Shown here piece after piece: positions 47 to 20,600 of a stretch of DNA of 64,000 nt (position 1 is its first letter; every line of letters starts with the position of its first letter). The position numbers and the translations under genes are program-made. The notes beneath the pieces are model-generated. The model saw nothing but the letters and a program-made list of their open reading frames with translations, was not told where the DNA came from and ran no database searches. Source of the DNA: a virus. The DNA lies in IMG/VR virus record IMGVR_UViG_3300046387_000246, positions 1-64,000 of that record; one strand, written 5' to 3'.

Positions 47-222
47 AAAGACGTTACATTTTTGAATGCGAAATTGAAGTCAGCGATCTAGATGATATTC
101 AATGGAAGCATCTACCCGAAGAGATACAAATGTATCTAGATTCTAACTATGAGCATAATAACACATCAAATGTTATTAGGTGGAATATTAGAGATAAATT
201 CCCTTTAATTAAGGACAGTTAA
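43..222 (+). CDS. Small hypothetical protein, 59 aa
   Basis: A 59-residue ORF starting MKRRYIFECEIEV and ending FPLIKDS. It begins at an ATG overlapping the previous stop (ATGA). The start is basic and beta-like (alternating RRYIFECEIEV), followed by an acidic helix-like middle. No family is recognised. Its stop codon lies inside the first copy of the palindromic promoter element at 214-233, so gene end and promoter are interleaved. That it is a gene rests on tight packing and the overlap. Confidence 0.6.
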   Translation: MKRRYIFECEIEVSDLDDIQWKHLPEEIQMYLDSNYEHNNTSNVIRWNIRDKFPLIKDS

Positions 223-276
223 ATATGTGTCACAATACACCTAGAATAGGGTACAAAATACCTTATAATAGTAGTA
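214..276 (+). promoter_or_regulatory. Promoter module copy 1 (palindrome plus TATAAT)
   Basis: GACA 214-217, a 10-nt core, TGTC 228-231 followed by AC; then 32 nt to TATAAT at 264-269. The tail after the -10 (AGTAGTATAGAAACAAA) resembles that of the four other copies. No TTGACA-like -35 lies 16-18 nt upstream of the -10, so an activator bound at the palindrome is a plausible requirement. It would serve the operon starting at 295. Confidence 0.7.
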
Positions 277-294
277 TAGAAACAAAAAGACTAA

Positions 295-522
295 ATGAAA
301 CCAAATCTTTACACAATGATGTTCAATACAGTCTTATCGATAGACTTTGGAAGAACATTCTGGTTAGATGAGCAAAAAGAACTATGTTCAGCACCAACTT
401 TTACAGATGGTTCAACTGACTGGGATATGTCAGACTATGTTTGCGACTGGACAGATCTAGATGGTATAAATCTAGGTAAATTACTTAACATTCAAAAATC
501 ACTTCTTAAGGACTTCCAATAA
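295..522 (+). CDS. Small hypothetical protein, 75 aa
   Basis: A 75-residue acidic protein (MKPNLYTMMFNTVL at the N-terminus, then several W and D residues: FWLDEQ, DWDMSDYVCDW). It is the first gene after promoter module copy 1, with ATG about 26 nt downstream of the -10. Its stop overlaps the next ATG by 1 nt (TAATG), indicating translational coupling. No family is recognised. The acidic, small and unconserved look is typical of early host-takeover genes in T4-like phages, but that role is inference. Confidence 0.7.
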   Translation: MKPNLYTMMFNTVLSIDFGRTFWLDEQKELCSAPTFTDGSTDWDMSDYVCDWTDLDGINLGKLLNIQKSLLKDFQ

Positions 523-818
523 TGACAAACGATACAAAACTCACAAATGACCAACTCACCGAAATGAAGGATTCATTCGTTGAGATTATGGTAGATGGGA
601 TGGACACCAAAACCTTAGCACGTTATGTTTATGACTCAATGAGTGAGTACTATGAAAAGATGAATGAACACGATTTCAAAGAAGAAATGGATAATTACGA
701 TGAATGCCTTTATGATGAGTTAATGGAAAATGCACTCATTGAAGATGAAGAAGAAAAAGAAGAACACTTCTCAGAAATTCTATTTGATAGAGAAGTTGGA
801 GGTGCTATTGATGACTAA
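522..818 (+). CDS. Small acidic hypothetical protein, 98 aa
   Basis: A 98-residue, strongly acidic protein with a run of E and D residues near 76-82 (EDEEEKEE). Helix is predicted by eye for most of its length (KDSFVEIMVDGMDTKTLARYVYDSM). Similar short acidic proteins are common in cyanophage accessory regions; the function is unknown. It lies in the operon starting at 295 and overlaps the next gene by 8 nt (ATGACTAA). Confidence 0.7.
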   Translation: MTNDTKLTNDQLTEMKDSFVEIMVDGMDTKTLARYVYDSMSEYYEKMNEHDFKEEMDNYDECLYDELMENALIEDEEEKEEHFSEILFDREVGGAIDD

Positions 819-1020
819 TTACAATTCACCTAGTGAGATCGGTGTTGGTGATGTTGTAAAGTACAATAACACACAATACACAGTTTTGACCAATTACATA
901 AAAGGTCAGACTGATGCAAAAGGTCATACACCTAGAGAAAACAGAACTATTTTAATTGATGCAGAAGACAATCGTACAATGTGTCAAGATTTTAACCTAT
1001 TGGAGATTATTTCACAATGA
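811..1020 (+). CDS. Small hypothetical protein, 69 aa
   Basis: I start this gene at ATG 811 rather than the upstream in-frame ATG at 730. The 811 start has GGAGG at 798-802, 8 nt upstream, and avoids an 81-nt longer overlap with the preceding gene; the extra upstream residues would be a poly-Lys run read from the acidic codons of that gene. The 69-residue product (MTNYNSPSEIGVGDVVKYNN...) looks like a small beta-barrel, with GVGDVVKYNNTQYTVL resembling SH3/KOW-like strand patterns. That fold is a guess. It ends in an ATGA overlap with the next gene. Confidence 0.7.
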   Translation: MTNYNSPSEIGVGDVVKYNNTQYTVLTNYIKGQTDAKGHTPRENRTILIDAEDNRTMCQDFNLLEIISQ

Positions 1021-1202
1021 CAACAAAAGAGAGAGATTTAACTGGTCAGCAGTATATTAACGTAATTGCTGAATTACCTGATAAAGATTTTTATCCTATT
1101 GCTGAACAGATATGGAAAGCACTTGATAGAAATAACATCAAACTTGCTCAAGATGCTGAACTTAGTATAAGAGTATATAATTTTGAAGAATATACTGAAT
1201 AA
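1017..1202 (+). CDS. Small hypothetical protein, 61 aa
   Basis: A 61-residue protein (MTTKERDLTGQQYINVIAELPDK), last gene of the 295-1202 operon, starting in an ATGA overlap. It looks mostly helical (DKDFYPIAEQIWKALDRNNIKLAQDAE). No family is recognised. Its stop is immediately followed by the palindrome of promoter module copy 2. Confidence 0.65.
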   Translation: MTTKERDLTGQQYINVIAELPDKDFYPIAEQIWKALDRNNIKLAQDAELSIRVYNFEEYTE

Positions 1203-1265
1203 GACAGTTGGATTAGTGTCACAAGAGTACTACTATTAGGGCATCCATCCATTATAATAGGTATA
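1203..1265 (+). promoter_or_regulatory. Promoter module copy 2 (palindrome plus TATAAT)
   Basis: GACA 1203-1206, 10-nt core, TGTC 1217-1220 followed by AC, exactly 32 nt, then TATAAT 1253-1258. It lies between a stop at 1202 and the ATG at 1284, and there is no -35 consensus. Same geometry as copy 1. Confidence 0.7.
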
Positions 1266-1283
1266 TACAAACGAATTAAGAAA

Positions 1284-1472
1284 ATGAAAAAAGGTTTAAA
1301 CATCGAAGTCACATCCACACAGTACGATTATCTTTATGATGTACTAATGGAAGCATATGCTAATGACGTAGCAGAGCAAAAAGACTGGGATGTCCAAACT
1401 TTCGATAATCTAATTGACAATGTGTGTCAAGCACAACAGACTAACCTATCCAATTCAGTAAAAGGAGCATAG
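1284..1472 (+). CDS. Small hypothetical protein, 62 aa
   Basis: A 62-residue protein (MKKGLNIEVTSTQYDYLYDVLMEAY) that is helix-rich with an acidic middle (EQKDWDVQTFDNLIDNV). First gene after promoter module copy 2. The next gene starts 4 nt after its stop, preceded by AAAGGAGC at 1460-1467, a good ribosome-binding site. Function unknown. Confidence 0.65.
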   Translation: MKKGLNIEVTSTQYDYLYDVLMEAYANDVAEQKDWDVQTFDNLIDNVCQAQQTNLSNSVKGA

Positions 1473-1476
1473 TCTA

Positions 1477-1659
1477 ATGAGTTGCATACAAAACGAGACA
1501 ATCCTAGAAAATCTATACGATGAAGTATGGGAAGAGTATAGGATTAAAAACAATCTTACTTCAGATCAACTTGATGCTATCGATCAGAATTCTGATCTAG
1601 GTTATCTACCAGTAATTGCAGATGAAGCACAAAAACGTTTCGAGGATTTAATTCAATGA
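1477..1659 (+). CDS. Small hypothetical protein, 60 aa
   Basis: A 60-residue protein (MSCIQNETILENLYDEVWEEYRIKNN) with a helical, acidic N-terminal half. Its C-terminal segment VIADEAQKRFEDL resembles AIADEAKKRVAQSL in the next gene, so the two may be divergent relatives from a local duplication. ATGA overlap with the next gene. No known family. Confidence 0.65.
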   Translation: MSCIQNETILENLYDEVWEEYRIKNNLTSDQLDAIDQNSDLGYLPVIADEAQKRFEDLIQ

Positions 1660-1985
1660 ATTTACATAATGAGGTTATTGCTGAATCACTCACAAATTTG
1701 AAAAAAGAAGGATTTGATGTTAGAGAGTCAGATCTTGATATGGTTGCTATAGCAGATGAAGCAAAAAAACGAGTTGCTCAATCACTTGCAAATTTTGATA
1801 AAAGCAATCAAATTAAACTTGATTTCTTGACAGATACCTACACACAATGGTTACTACAGGAAAATATCTATGAACGTATATGTGCATCGGATCTAAGATA
1901 TGGATCATATGATTTGAGCGATGAGCAAAATCAATGGTTAGAAACATTCATTGAGATATGGGACATTATAGCGGAGGTGGATTAA
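1656..1985 (+). CDS. Small hypothetical protein, 109 aa
   Basis: A 109-residue protein (MNLHNEVIAESLTNLKKEGFDV), helical by eye, with a C-terminal part rich in W and acidic residues (EQNQWLETFIEIWDIIAEVD). Its VAIADEAKKR segment matches a similar segment in the preceding 60-residue protein. Last gene of the 1284-1985 operon; promoter module copy 3 follows. Function unknown. Confidence 0.7.
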   Translation: MNLHNEVIAESLTNLKKEGFDVRESDLDMVAIADEAKKRVAQSLANFDKSNQIKLDFLTDTYTQWLLQENIYERICASDLRYGSYDLSDEQNQWLETFIEIWDIIAEVD

Positions 1986-2005
1986 ATGAAGTCAAGCAGT
2001 CTTGT

Positions 2006-2069
2006 GACAGTTATTTTAGTGTCACTCTTTCTCTTCCATTCGATACCAGTAACCTCTATAATATTAGTA
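2006..2069 (+). promoter_or_regulatory. Promoter module copy 3 (palindrome plus TATAAT)
   Basis: A perfect 6-bp inverted repeat GTGACA (2004-2009), 10-nt core, TGTCAC (2020-2025), then 31 nt to TATAAT 2057-2062 (33 nt counted from the TGTC core). The tail AGTATAAGCAACAAAG after the -10 is identical to copy 5. It is preceded by GAAGTCAAGC, also shared with copy 5. Confidence 0.75.
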
Positions 2070-2087
2070 TAAGCAACAAAGAGGTCA

Positions 2088-2252
2088 ATGGACAATTACA
2101 CCGCACTTCTCACTCTCATAGGAGACATCAATAACTCTTTCTCTCATCTAGAGGACGAGGATTCAGCAGATATATGCGATGGTGACATCAAATTGCTAGA
2201 CAAAGCAGTTAAAAGATTTAAAACTACAGTATGGGAGAATCAACTAAAATGA
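2088..2252 (+). CDS. Small hypothetical protein, 54 aa
   Basis: A 54-residue ORF (MDNYTALLTLIGDINNSF...TTVWENQLK). ATG 2088 follows promoter module copy 3 by about 25 nt and is preceded by AAAGAGG at 2078-2084, a plausible ribosome-binding site. It ends in an ATGA overlap with the nuclease-like gene, the pattern expected for a coupled pair. Helical and acidic in the middle (LEDEDSADICDGD). Function unknown. Confidence 0.65.
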   Translation: MDNYTALLTLIGDINNSFSHLEDEDSADICDGDIKLLDKAVKRFKTTVWENQLK

Positions 2253-2761
2253 ACGTAATACAAATGTTTTCAGCAGAACAACGCTATCAAAAACTATTTG
2301 AACAAATGTATGAGATATGCGAAACTGAAGGATGGGGTGACCCATTCTCTTATGCAAGATCTAGAGAAATCCATATGGCAGGCGTTTTAGGTCATAGGGT
2401 TGCGGATGACTATTCTGGTGCGGATGCATATGATAAGTATGATCTACCAGTAGAATATAAGTCCACTATAGGTAAGAAACTAACAGCAACTTACAATGGA
2501 ATTTCAGTTCAAGATAGTTGGGATAAACAAGTAGAATACATTCTCAATGAAAAGATCGGAAAATACCATCATCACTATTATGCACGATATGAAGGAGGTC
2601 AGATAGTTGAAGTATGGAGACTAACAGCGAAGCAAGTCTATGATAAATTACTTCCAAATCTCAAAAGACAATTTCATTCAACTAAGGTTAAAAAAGACCC
2701 TAGACTTGGATATACTCTATCAGAAAAGTATATCTATGAAGTTGGTACACAAATCATTTAA
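2249..2761 (+). CDS. Probable PD-(D/E)XK-fold nuclease-like protein
   Basis: A 170-residue protein. I start it at ATG 2249 (ATGA overlap with the upstream small gene); an in-frame ATG at 2231 would add six residues and overlap more. The central motif GADAYDKYDLPVEYKS places D59, E69 and K71 in the D-x(n)-E-x-K arrangement of PD-(D/E)XK nucleases, with an upstream E40 and the GH of LGHRVADDYSGAD as in restriction-endonuclease-like proteins. The rest (SWDKQVEYILNEKIGKYHHHYYARYE) fits a mixed fold. No methyltransferase is nearby, so it may degrade host DNA or act in recombination rather than restriction. The fold call is motif-based. Confidence 0.6.
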   Translation: MNVIQMFSAEQRYQKLFEQMYEICETEGWGDPFSYARSREIHMAGVLGHRVADDYSGADAYDKYDLPVEYKSTIGKKLTATYNGISVQDSWDKQVEYILNEKIGKYHHHYYARYEGGQIVEVWRLTAKQVYDKLLPNLKRQFHSTKVKKDPRLGYTLSEKYIYEVGTQII

Positions 2762-2787
2762 TTCACCCAATTCTCCAGGAACTTATT

Positions 2788-3015
2788 ATGGAAACTGACA
2801 ACACAGTCATCGAAAATGAACGTCAAATGAATATAGACGTTTTTGCTAATCACTTCTTAAAGCAATGTAAAAAGCATATTGACAACGGTATGCTAGGCGA
2901 AGCGGATGCACTTTTTAATGAATTTATCGTTGATGGCATCGATCCCGAAGATGGTGACGTTAATTTCATTTTCTTACAAGATCTTACAGACTACTATCAC
3001 GAAGAGGAGGACTAA
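2788..3015 (+). CDS. Small acidic hypothetical protein, 75 aa
   Basis: A 75-residue acidic protein (METDNTVIENERQMNIDVFANHFLKQ) ending YYHEEED. Helical N-terminal half and an acidic C-terminus (DGIDPEDGDVNF). It lies 26 nt downstream of the nuclease-like gene, probably in the same transcript, and is followed directly by a small membrane protein. Function unknown. Confidence 0.65.
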   Translation: METDNTVIENERQMNIDVFANHFLKQCKKHIDNGMLGEADALFNEFIVDGIDPEDGDVNFIFLQDLTDYYHEEED

Positions 3016-3180
3016 ATGAAAGTCACTTTTAAAAACACTAAAAAAGAGATCTATGATGCTATGCTACGGTATGACAATATCAAATTTCTAAAAGAAAAGG
3101 ATATTATCAAATTGAAGCAAGAGCGTAATGTACTTGTCTATATTGCTATCATACTTTTTACCTTAATGTGTCTTACATAG
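3016..3180 (+). CDS. Small C-terminally anchored membrane protein, 54 aa
   Basis: A 54-residue ORF starting right after the previous stop (TAA-ATG). The N-terminal two thirds are charged and helical (MKVTFKNTKKEIYDAML, KEKDIIKLKQERN). The last 15 residues (VLVYIAIILFTLMCL) form one hydrophobic segment, so it looks tail-anchored in the host membrane with its basic domain in the cytoplasm. Function unknown; host-takeover or membrane-targeting roles are only guesses. Confidence 0.6.
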   Translation: MKVTFKNTKKEIYDAMLRYDNIKFLKEKDIIKLKQERNVLVYIAIILFTLMCLT

Positions 3181-3243
3181 GACACTTATATTACTGTCAC
3201 ATTCAGACGTGAATACAGGTGTTCATCCCTTATAATAGTAATA
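3181..3243 (+). promoter_or_regulatory. Promoter module copy 4 (palindrome plus TATAAT)
   Basis: GACA 3181-3184, immediately after the TAG of the previous gene; 10-nt core CTTATATTAC; TGTC 3195-3198 followed by AC; exactly 32 nt; TATAAT 3231-3236, then AGTAATATAAGCAACAGAGG. Same layout as the other copies. Confidence 0.7.
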
Positions 3244-3264
3244 TAAGCAACAGAGGAAAAAACA

Positions 3265-3657
3265 ATGGGATTCACTAAAGTACTTGCAAAGCACTCTAAC
3301 AAGACTGTAAGGTTAGACACCTATCAGAGATTACTTTTAACCGCAATCGATTCATATGGTAATGGCAGTTGGAAAAATAACGTATCACTACATCACAAAT
3401 ATGACCAGAGAGGAGCATTTGCAAATATTCTCATCGGTGGTAATGTAGTAGGTAAAGTTGTTTACGATATTCCACAGGATGACATATCCGCAGATGACTA
3501 TAGAGCAATCCACATTGATAAAACTAAATTCTCTAAAGTATCCTATATTGCATTTGTTAAAGATGCTGACTATGATATGCAGACCATCAAATATAGAAAT
3601 CTTTTATCAAAATTCTACTTAGTCATCCTTACCGATAATAAGATGATAAAGTACTAA
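3265..3657 (+). CDS. Hypothetical protein, 130 aa
   Basis: A 130-residue, slightly basic protein (MGFTKVLAKHSNKTVRLDTY...DNKMIKY). ATG follows GAGGAAAAAA, a good ribosome-binding site, and promoter module copy 4. It is the only gene between copies 4 and 5. The middle (GAFANILIGGNVVGKVVYDIPQDD) suggests beta strands. No recognised family. Confidence 0.7.
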   Translation: MGFTKVLAKHSNKTVRLDTYQRLLLTAIDSYGNGSWKNNVSLHHKYDQRGAFANILIGGNVVGKVVYDIPQDDISADDYRAIHIDKTKFSKVSYIAFVKDADYDMQTIKYRNLLSKFYLVILTDNKMIKY

Positions 3658-3675
3658 GAAGTCAAGCGATCTTGT

Positions 3676-3738
3676 GCCACTTTTATTACTGGCACTCGAT
3701 CACCTGTATTCACCCATTTATCCATTATAATATTAGTA
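3676..3738 (+). promoter_or_regulatory. Promoter module copy 5, with paired base changes in the palindrome
   Basis: GTGCCA 3674-3679, 10-nt core CTTTTATTAC, TGGCAC 3690-3695; 32 nt from the TGGC core to TATAAT 3726-3731, then the AGTATAAGCAACAAAG tail as in copy 3. Compared with copy 3 the left arm has A to C and the right arm the matching T to G, so symmetry is kept. This indicates that the two-fold symmetry (protein dimer site or RNA stem) matters. Confidence 0.75.
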
Positions 3739-3756: not shown

Positions 3757-4071
3757 ATGAGAAAAATCGAAGCACAAATGAACAGAGCAATCAGAACTGG
3801 AGAGAACTTCACTTCATCCAATACTTCAGTTACTCACACTTCTGAAGGTGCTAACGTTTACCTACACGGAAATCACATAGCAACAGTTAAGAGAAATTCA
3901 ATCCTATTGTTCGATGGCGGTTGGCAGTCCAATACAACTAAATCAAGACTAAACGCACTTTGCTATGAATTTTCATATGGTGCTAGAGTTTTCGCTAAGA
4001 ACTTTGAGTGGTTCGTAGGTTACAAGAATTTAACTGAAGAATTCGCTAATGGATTTGAGTTAGCACTATGA
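3757..4071 (+). CDS. Hypothetical protein, 104 aa
   Basis: A 104-residue protein (MRKIEAQMNRAIRTGENFTSSN). The segment TSEGANVYLHGNHIATVKRNSILLFDGGWQSNTTKSRLNAL matches a small-protein pattern I recall from other T4-like phage accessory regions (beta strands ending in a GGWxSxTTxxRLNAL motif), but I cannot name a function. It is under promoter module copy 5 and ends in an ATGA overlap with the next gene. Confidence 0.7.
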   Translation: MRKIEAQMNRAIRTGENFTSSNTSVTHTSEGANVYLHGNHIATVKRNSILLFDGGWQSNTTKSRLNALCYEFSYGARVFAKNFEWFVGYKNLTEEFANGFELAL

Positions 4072-4199
4072 GCAATAAAAACACCCCATTAACGGAAGAG
4101 GTCTATAAGCAACTATGCGACCCTAGTCCCATTATACAATATTACTTTCAAATAAAACCAAATGAGAAGGAGGAGGATTTGACAGGGGTAGAAAACTGA
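4068..4199 (+). CDS. Small hypothetical protein, 43 aa
   Basis: A 43-residue ORF (MSNKNTPLTEEVYKQLCDPSP...LTGVEN) starting in an ATGA overlap with the preceding gene. A consensus -35 hexamer (TTGACA 4179-4184) lies inside its last codons, so the coding end doubles as a promoter for the next gene. Function unknown. Confidence 0.55.
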   Translation: MSNKNTPLTEEVYKQLCDPSPIIQYYFQIKPNEKEEDLTGVEN

Positions 4200-4214
4200 T
4201 ATATACTAGAGGGT
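4179..4214 (+). promoter_or_regulatory. Sigma70-type promoter for the HNH endonuclease gene
   Basis: TTGACA 4179-4184, 17-nt spacer, TATACT 4202-4207. This is a near-perfect host sigma70 promoter inside the end of the 43-codon gene. Transcription would start around 4214, inside the loop of the terminator hairpin at 4208-4227, so its own RNA would not form that hairpin. Confidence 0.75.
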
Positions 4215-4232
4215 ATTATATCCCTCTTTTTA
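4208..4232 (+). terminator. Intrinsic terminator ending the early small-gene operon
   Basis: AGAGGG 4208-4213 pairs with CCCTCT 4222-4227 across an 8-nt AT loop, followed by TTTT and further T-rich sequence. It sits 9 nt after the stop of the 43-residue gene. It would stop transcripts coming from upstream while leaving the embedded sigma70 promoter free to express the HNH gene. Confidence 0.7.
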
Positions 4233-4244
4233 TTATATCAAATT

Positions 4245-4574
4245 ATGAACCCATTTAAAAAGATCGATGAATCGACTTACCAGGATAGCGAAGGCATCCT
4301 ATATAAACCTATTCCACAATATGAGGATTATTTCGTTTCTAACCTAGGGGAAATATATTCTACGAAGTGGGGTAAATGGAAGAAATTAAAGACTCATCTT
4401 AATGAAAACGGTTACCGAAGAGTTACTTTAAGACAACACGGTAAAACCGTAGTCCGAAGGTGTGCTAGACTTACCGCACTTGCATACCATCCCCACGGAG
4501 ATAACAATCTCAACGTCATTCATATAGATAAGGACAAAGTAAACGACAAAGCGATAAACCTAAAATGGTTATAG
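4245..4574 (+). CDS. NUMOD4/HNH-type endonuclease (probable stand-alone homing endonuclease)
   Basis: A 109-residue protein. Residues about 20-50 (YKPIPQYEDYFVSNLGEIYS) match the NUMOD4 DNA-binding motif W/Y-x-x-I-x-x-Y-x-x-Y-x-V-S-N-x-G-x-I/V-x-S. The C-terminal part (RLTALAYHPHGDNNLNVIHID...AINLKWL) fits the HNH_3 pattern with an H-I-D followed by N and a terminal NLxW. The first metal-site residue of the HNH motif looks weaker (VIHID rather than VnHiD). It has its own sigma70 promoter and is insulated from the upstream operon by a terminator, as expected for a mobile free-standing endonuclease gene. It would cut related phage genomes to spread itself; its target is not visible. Confidence 0.8.
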   Translation: MNPFKKIDESTYQDSEGILYKPIPQYEDYFVSNLGEIYSTKWGKWKKLKTHLNENGYRRVTLRQHGKTVVRRCARLTALAYHPHGDNNLNVIHIDKDKVNDKAINLKWL

Positions 4575-4834
4575 TTTTCCACAGGGTTTTCCACAAAAGG
4601 TAGTATCCTTGAGTATATTTTAAATGGTTAAATAAATATACTTTAGTGTTTTATATTAATGGTTAATTCTTTATATAAACCTATCTAGGAATAGCACTCT
4701 TAGCAGTCTATAATAGAATACTGATTACGTCAACTATATAACAACAGGGGTTGACAAATTAGGAAAACGTAGGTTATAATTAGAGAGTCAACGATTCACC
4801 CCACTAACTAACAACAATCCATCGCTAATTACTA
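4575..4834 (+). other. AT-rich intergenic region with DnaA-box-like repeats
   Basis: About 260 nt without a convincing gene. It begins with two direct copies of TTTTCCACA (4575-4583 and 4587-4595), each matching the DnaA-box pattern TTWTNCACA. Then comes very AT-rich sequence with an AATAAATA at 4631-4638 (like a T4-type late promoter) and a TATAAT at 4709-4714 without a -35. The sigma70 promoter at 4751 closes the region. GTCAAC or its complement occurs at 4729-4734, 4750-4755 and 4787-4792. Confidence 0.5.
4751..4787 (+). promoter_or_regulatory. Strong sigma70-type promoter
   Basis: TTGACA 4751-4756, 18-nt spacer, TATAAT 4775-4780: both hexamers are perfect. It lies 55 nt upstream of the 52-residue basic protein gene. 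GTTGAC overlapping the -35 and GTCAAC at 4787-4792, near the expected start, form an inverted repeat that could be an operator. Confidence 0.75.
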
Positions 4835-5346: not shown

Positions 5347-5763
5347 ATGTCTCAGAAGTTGAAAAGAAAATACGAAGCTGAGTACGCTCAGTTCATCGGT
5401 AAGGAGTGGAGTAAGACCAAGGGTGGTGGTTGCTTCACTCTTTTGTTTGATATGGGAAAGGAGATAGGATATCACACCTGTAAGGAAGACTATTCATTCA
5501 CCGCCAAGGAGTTCCTTAGAGATCTCTGGGAAGCCGAGGATTGGACTGCGATTAAAACGTCGAGTATGGGTGAGGTATTTGATATCAGTGATCTACAAAA
5601 GTACGACATACTGGTGATGAGGTTGGAGAAAAGACTTAATCACTGTGCTGTGTACTTGGGAGAAGGGTTTATATTACATCACAAAGCGTTCTCGAAGTCT
5701 AACATAGAAGCAGTAGAAACCTATATACCTTCGACACTGTACGTTATACGAAAGAATGCATAG
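5347..5763 (+). CDS. NlpC/P60-family peptidase-like protein (tail-associated cell-wall hydrolase)
   Basis: A 138-residue protein with the NlpC/P60 layout: a Cys in GGGCFTLLFDMG (C29), a His in NHCAVYLGEGFILHH (H99) followed by a further His pair (H111/H112). The preceding YDILVMRLEK matches the strand that in this family reads 'GDl/DIvlm'. The family usually has DC at the catalytic Cys; here it is GC. It resembles the peptidase domain of lambda-type tail protein K and cyanophage homologues, which open peptidoglycan during DNA entry or act in tail assembly. The next gene starts inside its end (8-nt overlap, ATG 5756). Confidence 0.7.
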   Translation: MSQKLKRKYEAEYAQFIGKEWSKTKGGGCFTLLFDMGKEIGYHTCKEDYSFTAKEFLRDLWEAEDWTAIKTSSMGEVFDISDLQKYDILVMRLEKRLNHCAVYLGEGFILHHKAFSKSNIEAVETYIPSTLYVIRKNA

Positions 5764-5914
5764 ATTCACAACAACTATTGAAGAAGATGATGATACAGGG
5801 GAACTGTTTGTTAAACTACCAGAGTCTTTATTATCTGCTGCTGACTTAAATATCGGAGATGTGGTAGAATATAGTGTAGAAAATGAAACTATTATCTTAA
5901 CTAAAGATCAATGA
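5756..5914 (+). CDS. AbrB/MazE-like small protein, 52 aa
   Basis: A 52-residue ORF overlapping the peptidase gene by 8 nt and the next gene by ATGA. The pattern TGELFVKLPESLLSAADLNIGDVVEYSVENETIIL follows the swapped-hairpin SpoVT-AbrB/MazE domain: a strand, 'LP', a helix, 'l.iGD.ve', then a final strand. Members are DNA-binding dimers, either antitoxins or transcription regulators. No toxin-like partner lies next to it, so a regulator is more likely. The very acidic N-terminal insert (EEDDDTGE) is unlike a normal DNA-binding arm, so DNA binding is uncertain. Confidence 0.6.
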   Translation: MHRFTTTIEEDDDTGELFVKLPESLLSAADLNIGDVVEYSVENETIILTKDQ

Positions 5915-14682: not shown

Positions 14683-17600
14683 ATGAAGGCTATTACAATA
14701 TCAGATAGGTTGCAGGATCAAATTCCTGCATTCATTAAAGAAGATAACGACCAGTTTGTCAATCTTTTAACGCAATATTATAAATCTCAAGAGAAATCGG
14801 GTCGTCCGTACGATGTTTTAAGTAACATACTGAGATATACAGATATTGGTTCGGGAGAATTTGACCCAAATTTCCTTTCTTCTACCTCTGCTGTACTAGA
14901 AAGAGTAGATCCGACACAAAAAACTATAATTGCAGAAAACGTAAATTACTTCCTCGAAAATGATGGTACAATTAAGATCGATGAAGAAGTCATTTACTAT
15001 GACAAAATTACACACTCTCCTGACATTGTTTTCACGCCTGGTGTTGACAAAGCCGAATTCGATAGAAAAATCCAAGAATTCGAACCAATTTCTGATCAAT
15101 TTGATGGTTCAACAACGCTATTTCCTTTAAGGTTACTTGGAAAACCTGTAACTCCTCAAAGTTCACAACATCTTCTTGTTATTGTAAATAACGAGTTTAA
15201 ATATCCAGATGTAGACTATTTCCTTGAAGGAGATAAGATACGTCTTGTAAACCCCCCAGAAACCCCTACAGGACTGCTTACAGGTGCTATCAATACAGTT
15301 CGTTACCTAATTGGTTACACAAGCATTCCTGTACGTTCTCTGGACACCATTACTGTTGCTAATGATGCTAAAGAATTTGAATTAAAGTTAGACGGATCAA
15401 GTTATACTCCATTATCTACTGTATCTTCTATAGTTGTTGTTAATAGAGTAGAAAAACGTCCATATGAAGATTTTACAATATTTGAAAATAAATTAATCTT
15501 TAAAGAGGATATTGGTGAAAATTCTGTTATCGCTATTCGTTCAATTGAACTTATTGCACCTGAATTTGGTGGTGGTGCGAGTGCAGTTGCTCAAATTGAA
15601 GATGAGAAGTTAAAATCAGTTATTGTTAAGGAAGGTGGTAGTGGATATCGTTTAAGTTTCGCTCCTAAGATTAGTGTTGCGTCAACTAAGGGTACTGGGT
15701 TTGGTGCTACTGCTGAAGCACTTGTTAATGGTATTAAAGAGACTCAATTACTATTTGCAGGACAAGGTTACGCTTCAAACAATCCTCCAGTTGTTATTGT
15801 TGACTCACCTGCTGACCCTGAAGGTAAAACTGCTCAAATCCGTGCAGTTGTTGATGATTCCATCGAAGGGGTCTCACAACTCATTGTAGACAGTTCAGGA
15901 AGTGGTTACGATAGGATCCCATCGATCAAATTCCAGAATCCTGGTGGTGCAACCATTAGTAACCCAACGTTAACTAACGGTGTGATCGATCCTGATTCAA
16001 TTACTGTCACAGATGATGGTTCAGGATATACTACTGCACCTCTTGTGTATTTGGATCTTCCAACAGGTGACAATGCCATAAGAGCTAACGTTGTTGCAAC
16101 AATTGATGCATTCGGGCGTGTTAATGGCATTACAGTCGTTTCAGGAGGACAAGGTTACACCAGTGTTCCTAGAGCACGTATTATTGATCCTGTAGGTGCA
16201 CAAATACTTGATGTCAATGTAACTGCGGGTAGAGTTACTAATATTGAACTATTAACTGGTGGTGCAGGTTACACAGACGCTCCATCGGTGTATATCGTTG
16301 ATAATAGGAAGGATATTACTGGTGCACCAGCTGGTGGTACTGGAGCAACTGCTGTTGCAACCATATTCAACGGAGAGATTACTGATATCAATATAACCAG
16401 TTTTGGAAATGGATACTCAGAAACAGAACCTCCTCAAGTTTTTATTGCTGCTCCACCTGCACCTGAAGCGTCTTGTGACGTTGGTTTTGGTGAAATTACT
16501 GGATTTACGATCCATAGTGCAGGTTCTGGATATCAACCATCTGCATTTGTTAACTGTAAGCGTGGTGTTTCTAGCACATCTTCATTTGATCAGAAAGGAA
16601 ACCAAGTATACAGTACAGAAGCATCTACAATTCAATCTTCACACGAGATTGGAGGAGTCATTCACAACCTAGATACACTCTTTGCTAAGGAATTATACAG
16701 AAGGTACGTAAATCAATATCTACCAAATGCGGAAATTGACTATGAAAAAGTAAATGCTCCGCAGATCATTAAAACTATTTCGGATTTTTACGCATCTAAG
16801 GGTACAAAGATCTCAACACAGTACCTATTCAAGATGCTGTTCTCTGAGAATGTGGATGTATCTTATCCAAAAGATGAGGTTATTAAACCATCTGCTGCAT
16901 CTTGGAACGTAGATACAGTCCTCCGTGCTGAACTTATAGAAGGTGATCCTATTGATTTACTTGATTCACAGTTAATTCAGTATGTGGATGACGTAGATAA
17001 CTCTGTTAAGGGTGCATCTGCACTGATTGAGAACGTTATTGCTATCAATACTGGTGTAGGAACTGTATATGAACTTGCTATATCTGAGGAAACACTACAG
17101 GGTTCATTCACTATACCCTACAAAACAACTCTTGTAGAATCACTTAACACTACAGAATCAATCATTACTGTTGACTCTACGATTGGTTGGCCAGAAAGAA
17201 ACGGAACTATCCGTATTAATGATACTGAGCAAGTACAATATAAGGAAAAGACACTTAACCAGTTCATTGAGTGTACACGTTCTAAGAATGGTGTTGTTGA
17301 AGATTGGGATGCGGGAACTGTAATTCACTCTGATATATTTGTATATTGCAATCGTGGAACCAATACTGAGATTAAATTGCGTGTTTTAGGTATTGCTGAT
17401 GCAAAATCTACCGTATTGACTGATACTGGTTCGTACTACTTACCTGGTGATAAATTAAACGTTGCATCTCTAGGTTCTACTGCTACAGATCAGCGTATCA
17501 CTTCTTGGTTGTATAACGTTAAGAAACTGATAAACGTTACTGATATTGTACCTGGCGGACTTAATAACCAGACTGCAACCGTAACTTGCTCTAATAAGCA

Positions 17601-20600
17601 CGGTCTTCTTGTTGGTGACACTGTTACCATCTACGGTGCAAACCCAACTGTGTTCAACGGTACGTTCCTAGTTACTTCACGTATTAGTGATTTCCTCTTT
17701 GAATACAATATACCTGCACCAGCAGATGCTGCTCCACAAGGTAATATCCTCCTATCTGTTGACTTGAATAAAGGTAAGTCTACAGAAGAAGGTATCAGCA
17801 TTGCAATTAGAGACTTTACTACAAACGTACAAAATACATTCTTTGACGATACACACTCATACATCGCTTCTTCAGGTATACCGAACTATCAGGTAGGTCC
17901 TTTCGTAGGTTCTGCACTGTTACCAGGTAACCAACGTAAACTTATACGTATACCACGTGTCATCAATACAATAAGTAAACGTGAACAAACAAGTTTCGGT
18001 CCTATCGGAGCCTGGGTGAACGGAGTTTCTGCCTGGTCATACAAGTCTGAAACAAAAATTAAGTACGGTGGTGTTATAGACATCTCCATAACAAACGTTG
18101 GACAGGGATATGATGCAGCGAATCCTCCTGTTATTGAGATTAGTGGAGGAAATGGTACAGGTGCTGCTGCTAGTGTTGTTGTAAACGGAGCGTTAAGTGA
18201 GATTGAAGTTACTTCTGGTGGTACTGGTTATACTTCTAGTCCTCTTGTTTCTATCGTGGGTGGTAACGGATTCGGTGCAACTGCTACTGCTGTTATTACA
18301 AACGGTGTAGTTTCTAAGATCTTAGTAGAAAACCCAGGTCAAGGATATACATCTCAACCTGATGTGTCTATTTCAGGTGGTGAAGGAACAGGTGCAACTG
18401 CTACTGCTGAAGTTCGCGGACCTATTCAGTCTGTAAGTATTGACAATGCAGGTTCATCTTATACCGCATCTCCTACTATTAAACTAAATTCAGGTGAAGG
18501 TGCTGTTGCACAATCAATCATTATTAATGGTCGTATCGTTTCAATCGCTATTATTGCAGCAGGTCGTGCATATACTACTGCACCAGAGATTGTAATCAAT
18601 GGAGATGGTTATGGTGCTGTGGCAAGAGCTACAATTGGTACAGTTGGTGAAGATAGAGGTAAGGTTATTGGTGTTACAGTTGTAAATAGAGGTATAGGAT
18701 ATACAACAGGTAACACAACGATCCGATTGGAAGCAGTCGGTGAGATGGCGACATTCACTGCAAACGTTTTTGAGTGGACACGTAACCTACAAGATGAATT
18801 AGGACAATCCTTTGATACAGCACGCGGTTATGTGTTTGCAGGTTACAACACTCAGTATGGTGGTGAATATGCTCACGTATCTGATCCAAAACAGCTCCGT
18901 TACGTCTTAGGCGATAATGTCTTCAAAAACCAATCGACTCAACAATTACAAGAACTTGCTACTGGGTGGTTACATTCTCCGATTCTTGGATGGGCATTCG
19001 ATGGTAACCCCATTTATGGTCCTTATGGTTACATTGATGCTACCGACCAGTCTTCTGGTGTACGTCGTATTAGAAGCTCTTATAAGATTAAGGATGTCTT
19101 AATCTATGACGCTGCAACTAACCCAACTCCAGTAAGAGCAGACGGACCTCTACTAAGCAACTATTCAGCTGGATCATTTATTGAAGATTATGAATATACT
19201 TTCCAATATGGTGACTTAGATCAATATAACGGGCGTTTTTGTAAGACTCCTGAATTCCCTGAAGGCATATATGCGTACTTTGTGTCTATCGATGCATCAG
19301 ATGCAGGTAATCCTATATTCCCATACATATGCGGTTCTCAACTTTATTCTAAAGCAGATGAGTGGAACTACAGTCAGAATGCTGTTCAAACAAATATTCC
19401 ATTAGGTGTTGTTAGATTTAGAGATCCATATGAAGATGTTGACATCGATATTGATCGTCAACCAAACCAAGATACTGATATTCTTGTAACTGAATTTGGT
19501 GAGGAACTTATCTTTGAAATTGAAGATACAAACCGTGATGGTGTTATCAATAATTTAGAAGATAGTACACCTATTAATATTGCAGAAGAACCTGTACTTC
19601 AGTTATTCGATTACTATCCTAAAGTTTCTACTAGATCAGAAGTTGATATTGACATTGAAACTACGACTAAATTTGAGGATGCTCAAGTTGATGGATTTGT
19701 GGTAGAGAATCCTGGTATTTCTTATAAAGTAAACGATAAACTATACTTTGATAATACAGATACAGAAGGATTTGGTGCTTCTGCTAAAGTTGACTCAGTT
19801 AAAGGTCTTTCAATATCTGGTTATTCTTCATATATGGCGAATGATATACCTTATGGTCGTATCACTACTCCTTCAGAACACGAATTGCGTATTGGTGATG
19901 AAGTTATCGTTACCAGTAATCCTATATTAGATTCTACAAATAAAACTTATAGAGTTAAAGTTATATCTGGTGTTGAAGAATTAACAATTACACAGAATGG
20001 TGTTGGTTATTCTTCTGAACTACCTCCAACCTATGAGTTGATTACTGACACAGGACAAGATTTCCAACTTTCTCTGGTTAGAACTGATGCAGGTGGTGTT
20101 TCACAAGCAAATATTATCAACTCTGGTTCTGGATACAGTGCTTCTAATCCTCCACAGATCAGAGTATCACATCCACAGAGATATAAGAAAGCAACTTACT
20201 TCTTATCCTTTATTAAAGAAGCAACTGGTATTCTTTCAGTAAATGACGTTAGAGTCGCTGATGACCGTACTATCTACGTTGTTGGACAAAGAGATATAAC
20301 TGGTGGTGATACTTGTGGTGTTCTTGCTAAGTTCAACAGTGATGGTCGTTTACTTTGGCAGAGAACCTTAGTTCCTACAGTTCCAAATGCTAATCCCAAG
20401 TCACTAAAATGGAATTCACTATATGTCGAAAACAGCAATCCTCATAATATCTACGTTATTGGTGAAACTGTTCCTAATATTACTAACTTAACTCATAACC
20501 CAGACGTTATCGTTGCAAAATATACTTCAGGATTTGATAATGCAAACAACCCTGATGGTATTCTTCAGTGGCAACGTGATATTGCAGGTATATCTGGTGC

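Follow-up and report, generated by a model that had tools for sequence, protein, structure and literature searches.

The question raised by this locus is why a palindrome should recur five times, on each occasion at the same distance upstream of a TATAAT box, within a short run of small genes. The stretch of DNA analysed (hereafter ‘the window’) comprises bases 1 to 64,000 of the 75,493-base IMG/VR virus record IMGVR_UViG_3300046387_000246; judged by its nearest relatives, which are T4-like cyanophages, the 75.5 kb record is a fragment of the genome of such a phage. The five palindrome-TATAAT units, which we term modules, look like real and well-conserved promoters. We further consider it probable, from comparison with related genomes, that they are promoters of a single class found in T4-like cyanophages, in which a dimeric activator would sit on the palindrome and recruit the host polymerase.

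All five modules share one layout: a 22-base-pair (bp) palindrome of the type GTGMCA-N10-TGKCAC, numbered here from its outer base; a spacer of 30-31 nucleotides (nt), measured from the end of the palindrome to TATAAT; the TATAAT box itself; an A at the predicted +1; a leader of 19-22 nt; and then ATG. They lie where the original prediction had placed them (Table 1), and its figure of 32-33 nt to TATAAT is the distance counted from the inner base, the outer-base spacers being 30, 30, 31, 30 and 30 nt. The predicted +1, seven bases past TATAAT, is an A in 5/5 copies, with 19, 19, 19, 22 and 19 nt from there to the ATG of copies 1-5. The absence of a -35 element, likewise claimed at the outset, holds: the best TTGACA-like match at 16-18 nt reaches only two or three of six bases in each copy. 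Searching the window with G[AC]CA-N10-TG[TG]CAC-N28-33-TATAAT returns five matches on the plus strand and one on the minus strand (the copy 3 palindrome read backwards), against one match in total among 200 dinucleotide-model shuffles of the same sequence; module scores for the five copies run from 27 to 47, against a maximum of 7.8 across 10 shuffled strands. No further copy is found in the whole record.

Copies 1, 2 and 4 no longer have the outer GTG in their left arm, because there the palindrome runs into the preceding gene, at its 3' end or stop codon: copy 1 overlaps the open reading frame (ORF) at 43-222, copy 2 meets the TAA at 1200-1202 and copy 4 the TAG at 3178-3180. Copies 3 and 5 have an 18-mer in common (AAGTCAAGCRRTCTTGTG), and therefore look like recent duplicates.

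A search of related cyanophages, which the original prediction had proposed alongside one of the whole genome, shows the module to be common to most T4-like cyanophages. In whole-genome weight-matrix scans (threshold score >16; shuffled maxima ~12 or less) we see 16 modules in P-SSM2, 14 in S-PM2, 12 in S-TIM4, 11 each in metaG-MbCM1 and P-HM2, and 10 in P-TIM40; Syn9 has 4 clear modules, or four to six when weaker copies are counted, S-SM2 has a single weak match, and the pelagiphage HTVC008M has none. The palindrome was not found in T4, in the T7-like cyanophages P-SSP7 and Syn5, or in Ma-LMM01 and S-TIM5. Scans of IMG/VR place the module in at least hundreds of loci among the matches listed, and 91% of the loci among those matches carry other homology to T4-like cyanophages. 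T4-type gp23 is present in 6/10 sampled IMG/VR records; the four that lack it are the shorter records, except for one of 107 kb. From this distribution we conclude that the module belongs to T4-like cyanophages. Within these genomes (P-SSM2, S-PM2, P-HM2, MbCM1, S-TIM4, P-TIM40 and Syn9), modules mostly cluster in regions of small hypothetical genes; in P-TIM40, 0/10 precede structural genes, replication genes or psbA, hli, talC or nrd. The pairing of copy 5 with a Gp96 family gene recurs in P-TIM40, with the same module and the same gene family.

Outside the phages, the full module occurs in 0/290 other genomes sampled from the cyanobacterial phylum, and a scan of all genome contigs gives scattered matches across phyla. 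The bacterial genomes that seem to carry it probably reflect contamination or misbinning. The 188-kb contig NZ_RMVE01000006.1, assigned to Nonlabens xiamenensis, holds the same set of modules as P-TIM40, to which it is 97.7% identical across 3 kb, making cyanophage contamination of a bacterial assembly the likely explanation; the metagenome bin of Flavobacteriales TMED113 (NHFO01000063.1) probably contains misbinned cyanophage DNA, since its contigs hold many modules.

The spacing seen in the window is kept by the relatives. Among 197 modules with an exact TATAAT, taken from related loci and dereplicated at 70% identity, the spacer is 30 nt in 116 and 31 nt in 52 (85% at 30-31 nt). As the first scan had picked loci by spacing, we re-scanned with the palindrome alone: for one marine variant, an exact TATAAT lies at 29-33 nt from 58/84 directed palindromes, the distance being 30 in 34 of them, and only 5 of the same 84 have one elsewhere within 100 nt; the peak at 30-31 nt is weaker for a second variant, whose sources are more mixed. 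With relatives aligned on TATAAT, base 12 after its first T is an A in 94%, i.e. a conserved +1; no TTGACA emerges from the spacers aligned in this way; and the first ATG falls at a median of 25 nt past TATAAT across the 197 modules.

Two variations on the layout were seen in passing. Some modules have an ATG at or beside the predicted +1 (TATAATAAAGACATG; at 19916 in locus L012, 9142 in L013 and 7878 in L007), an arrangement that suggests leaderless mRNAs. In some relatives the stretch separating palindrome and -10 box is taken up by a terminator-like hairpin, as in metaG-MbCM1 (L012) at 16205-16620; from its sequence, one short stretch may here close one gene and open the one that follows.

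The internal symmetry of the site is informative as to what might read it. Across 189 palindromes the consensus is TGTGMCASTTnnnnAASTGKCACA, with the outer GTGMCA the most conserved part and an A+T-rich centre, TTnnnnAA. The original prediction pointed to copy 5, in which both arms change together relative to copy 3; the joint change is real in that copy, but does not extend to a general rule, the choice of A or C being independent between the arms. At positions 4/19 of the 197 modules, 98 are matched against 96.8 expected (p=0.88), a weak association in the non-dereplicated count (p=0.003) having gone after dereplication; we therefore regard the change in copy 5 as a coincidence of two half-sites. 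At positions 7/16, Watson-Crick pairing is depleted (49 against 91 expected, p=1e-10), possible reasons being that longer hairpins are avoided or that the contact is asymmetric. On the opposite side of the palindrome, 41 -10-like boxes (one mismatch or fewer) lie at 30-31 nt against 4.3 expected, a count that takes in 13 modules flanked on either side by an exact TATAAT, some of which enter it in both orientations; a separate count without those 13 gave 45 boxes at 30-31 nt against ~7 expected. Such mirror -10 boxes can be understood if a symmetric activator serves either side, whereas neither an RNA stem nor a one-sided element explains them.

In our model, host RNA polymerase carrying its primary sigma factor would recognise TATAAT with no useful -35 to assist it. 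A dimeric DNA-binding activator would occupy the consensus palindrome, centred at about -53.5 (assuming a spacer of 30 and the last T of TATAAT at -7), and would recruit polymerase, most simply via the C-terminal domain of the alpha subunit; by virtue of its symmetry, the site could let some copies serve a second -10 box on their other side. The modules would thereby drive clusters of small genes, mostly of unknown function. An activator dimer near -53 had been suggested at the outset, and the fixed 30-31 nt spacing, the independent yet symmetric half-sites, the mirror -10 boxes and the lack of a consensus -35 all lend it support at the level of sequence. The genes downstream seem to be expressed early; both the placement of modules in P-TIM40 and the assignment of all P-HM2 auxiliary metabolic genes to the middle class (PMC5082946) are consistent with such timing. 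An early-acting phage factor would either enter with the virion or come from a promoter independent of itself, and a phage protein delivered or made first in one of these ways is, we think, somewhat more likely to be the binder than a host regulator, since host genomes are without a set of such sites.

Several observations pull in the other direction. The centres of the half-sites are 16 bp apart (~1.5 turns), which is unusual for a simple dimer, and at positions 7/16 a G in one half goes with a C in the other, a pattern that a strictly symmetric dimer does not explain. Nor is the absence of a -35 universal, a match of at least 5 of 6 being seen in 13% of relatives against 2.6% of shuffled spacers. 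Early genes need a factor that is available from the very beginning, yet no candidate was found; and S-SM2, itself a T4-like cyanophage, has just one or two degenerate copies, near 112-115 kb. The last of these, on the face of its sequence, is a natural case of module loss or replacement, and offers a way to profile for the activator: proteins of module-bearing phages that are missing from S-SM2 and HTVC008M include a Dam methylase, a DUF1825 protein and a small Cys-rich protein, which we take as a lead and no more, S-SM2 being the only T4-like cyanophage negative. The most specific form of the proposal, a promoter class confined to T4-like cyanophages in which a phage-specific activator, virion-carried or first-made, turns on early genes, at times in either direction, is accordingly one that we put forward tentatively and regard as rather doubtful in its entirety.

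The nearest competitor differs from the activator model only in the owner of the binder: the site would be read by a host regulator, or by the alpha C-terminal domain of RNA polymerase bound to an UP-like element. Early genes do need a factor that is present on entry, and the A+T-rich centre of the palindrome sits where UP elements lie; the most conserved part, however, is the outer GTGMCA rather than the A+T core. Against a host reader, too, stands the comparison with 121 genomes of the marine Synechococcus/Prochlorococcus family, recognised by a psbA as much as 96% identical to that of Syn9 (a non-photosynthetic family of small genomes was set aside): in these the palindrome is no commoner than a reversed control, and no conserved host copy has the phage core. 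The T7-like cyanophages P-SSP7 and Syn5 also do without it. Taking these points together, we think a host reader unlikely.

A second possibility is that the palindrome is an operator, with the -10 box firing early, alone or with host help, until an early-made phage repressor shuts the genes off. A symmetric dimer site that is absent from the host would suit a phage regulator of either sign, and an early product could repress without being in the virion. A dyad centred at -53.5, though, is clear of the -10/-35 region where repressors usually act, the spacing is fixed and recurs for the mirror -10 boxes, and promoters without a -35 usually need help rather than blocking; a repressor strikes us as quite improbable. 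The RNA stem offered as an alternative in the original prediction, which would process or terminate the upstream gene in read-through transcripts, can draw on self-complementary arms and on spacers that fold at -6 kcal/mol or better in 31% of cases against 13% of shuffled ones (some being terminator-like), but the pairing statistics at 4/19 and 7/16 speak against it and leave it very improbable. The palindrome moreover lies upstream of the predicted start, an RNA stem would need no fixed distance to a -10 box, and mirror boxes would be senseless for it.

Table 1. Coordinates of the five modules and associated features in the window
Feature	Position	Strand	Remarks
Copy 1 palindrome AGGACAGTTAAATATGTGTCAC	212-233	+	degenerate left arm; shares bases with the 3' end of ORF 43-222
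Copy 1 -10 box TATAAT	264-269	+	spacer 30; predicted +1 A276
ORF after copy 1	295-522	+	75 amino acids (aa); phrog_13427, unknown function
Copy 2 palindrome AAGACAGTTGGATTAGTGTCAC	1201-1222	+	left arm fused with stop codon TAA
Copy 2 -10 box TATAAT	1253-1258	+	spacer 30; predicted +1 A1265
ORF after copy 2	1284-1472	+	62 aa; without Pfam or PHROG match
Exact TATAAT, possible divergent -10 box	1965-1970	-	33 nt from the copy 3 palindrome, on its far side
18-mer AAGTCAAGCRRTCTTGTG, before copy 3	1989-2006	+	extends into palindrome; also at copy 5
Copy 3 palindrome GTGACAGTTATTTTAGTGTCAC	2004-2025	+	
Copy 3 -10 box TATAAT	2057-2062	+	spacer 31; predicted +1 A2069
ORF after copy 3	2088-2252	+	54 aa; phrog_18882, unknown function
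Copy 4 palindrome AGGACACTTATATTACTGTCAC	3179-3200	+	left arm fused with stop codon TAG
Copy 4 -10 box TATAAT	3231-3236	+	spacer 30; predicted +1 A3243
ORF after copy 4	3265-3657	+	130 aa; weak phrog_33741
18-mer AAGTCAAGCRRTCTTGTG, second copy, before copy 5	3659-3676	+	
Copy 5 palindrome GTGCCACTTTTATTACTGGCAC	3674-3695	+	
Copy 5 -10 box TATAAT	3726-3731	+	spacer 30; predicted +1 A3738
ORF after copy 5	3757-4071	+	Kyanoviridae Gp96 protein; PF23790, phrog_554

Elsewhere in the window, promoters of the ordinary sigma70 type differ from the modules, as had been claimed; examples just downstream of the cluster are TTGACA-18-TATAAT (4751-4780) and TTGACA-17-TATACT (4179-4207). The latter, a strong promoter, precedes an ORF resembling an HNH homing endonuclease (NUMOD4, 4245-4574), together with a terminator-like hairpin at 4208-4227. 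A 13-bp exact inverted repeat, GTGAATACAGGTG, joins the spacers of copies 4 and 5, at 3209-3221 (plus strand) and 3701-3713 (minus strand); the pair flanks the ORF at 3265-3657, and by chance no such repeat is expected. A MazE/AbrB-like protein (5756-5911, phrog_661) is conserved beside the module cluster, and nothing ties it to the palindrome. Late promoters of the TATAAATA type show no enrichment in the window.

T4-like cyanophages are among the most abundant viruses of the ocean, and the module bears on how these phages, which do without MotA/AsiA, first take over the host polymerase. It supplies a precise bait of 22-24 bp, along with a gene list and a rule for the spacing; with these in hand, hunting for the activator and predicting early genes in uncultured cyanophages become practical. 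Were the reading with a phage-specific activator true, the class would gain two new features in the mirror -10 boxes and the G/C rule at 7/16.

Turning to known systems, a dyad upstream of a -10 box is familiar in cyanobacteria from promoters bound by NtcA, which normally lies nearer to the start, at about -41.5. NtcA sites have been predicted in cyanophages, with the consensus GTA-N8-TAC (PMC3037559); that motif is not in the consensus of our 189 palindromes. The middle promoters of T4, which depend on MotA/AsiA, resemble the module in that the -10 box is kept while an activator site takes the place of the -35, and differ in that the MotA box lacks symmetry and has its centre near -30. T4-like cyanophages are without motA and/or asiA (PMC5780444). 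The difference from MotA boxes drawn in the original prediction is confirmed, T4 itself being without such palindromes.

The late promoters of P2 and P4 offer a closer likeness: P2 Ogr is thought to recruit polymerase via the alpha C-terminal domain from a dyad near -55, and the targets of Ogr and of P4 Delta, like the module at -53.5, combine a phage dyad with a normal -10 and no -35. Half-sites and spacing differ, however, the P2 consensus TGT-N12-ACA (PMC3931495) not matching GTGMCA-N10-TGKCAC; P2 promoters are moreover late, with Ogr made during infection, whereas the modules seem to be early. Judged by its motif, then, the module is outside the P2 late promoter family.

Closest of all, Doron et al. 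(2016) reportedly described a novel regulatory element for the early genes of Syn9 and P-TIM40, widespread in T4-like cyanophages, along with host-like promoters for middle genes. The module is probably this element: the same two phages carry it here, although Syn9 holds few and weaker copies. The promoter class is thus most likely already reported in outline, and its interest lies in the protein that binds, in the mirror -10 boxes and in the rule at 7/16.

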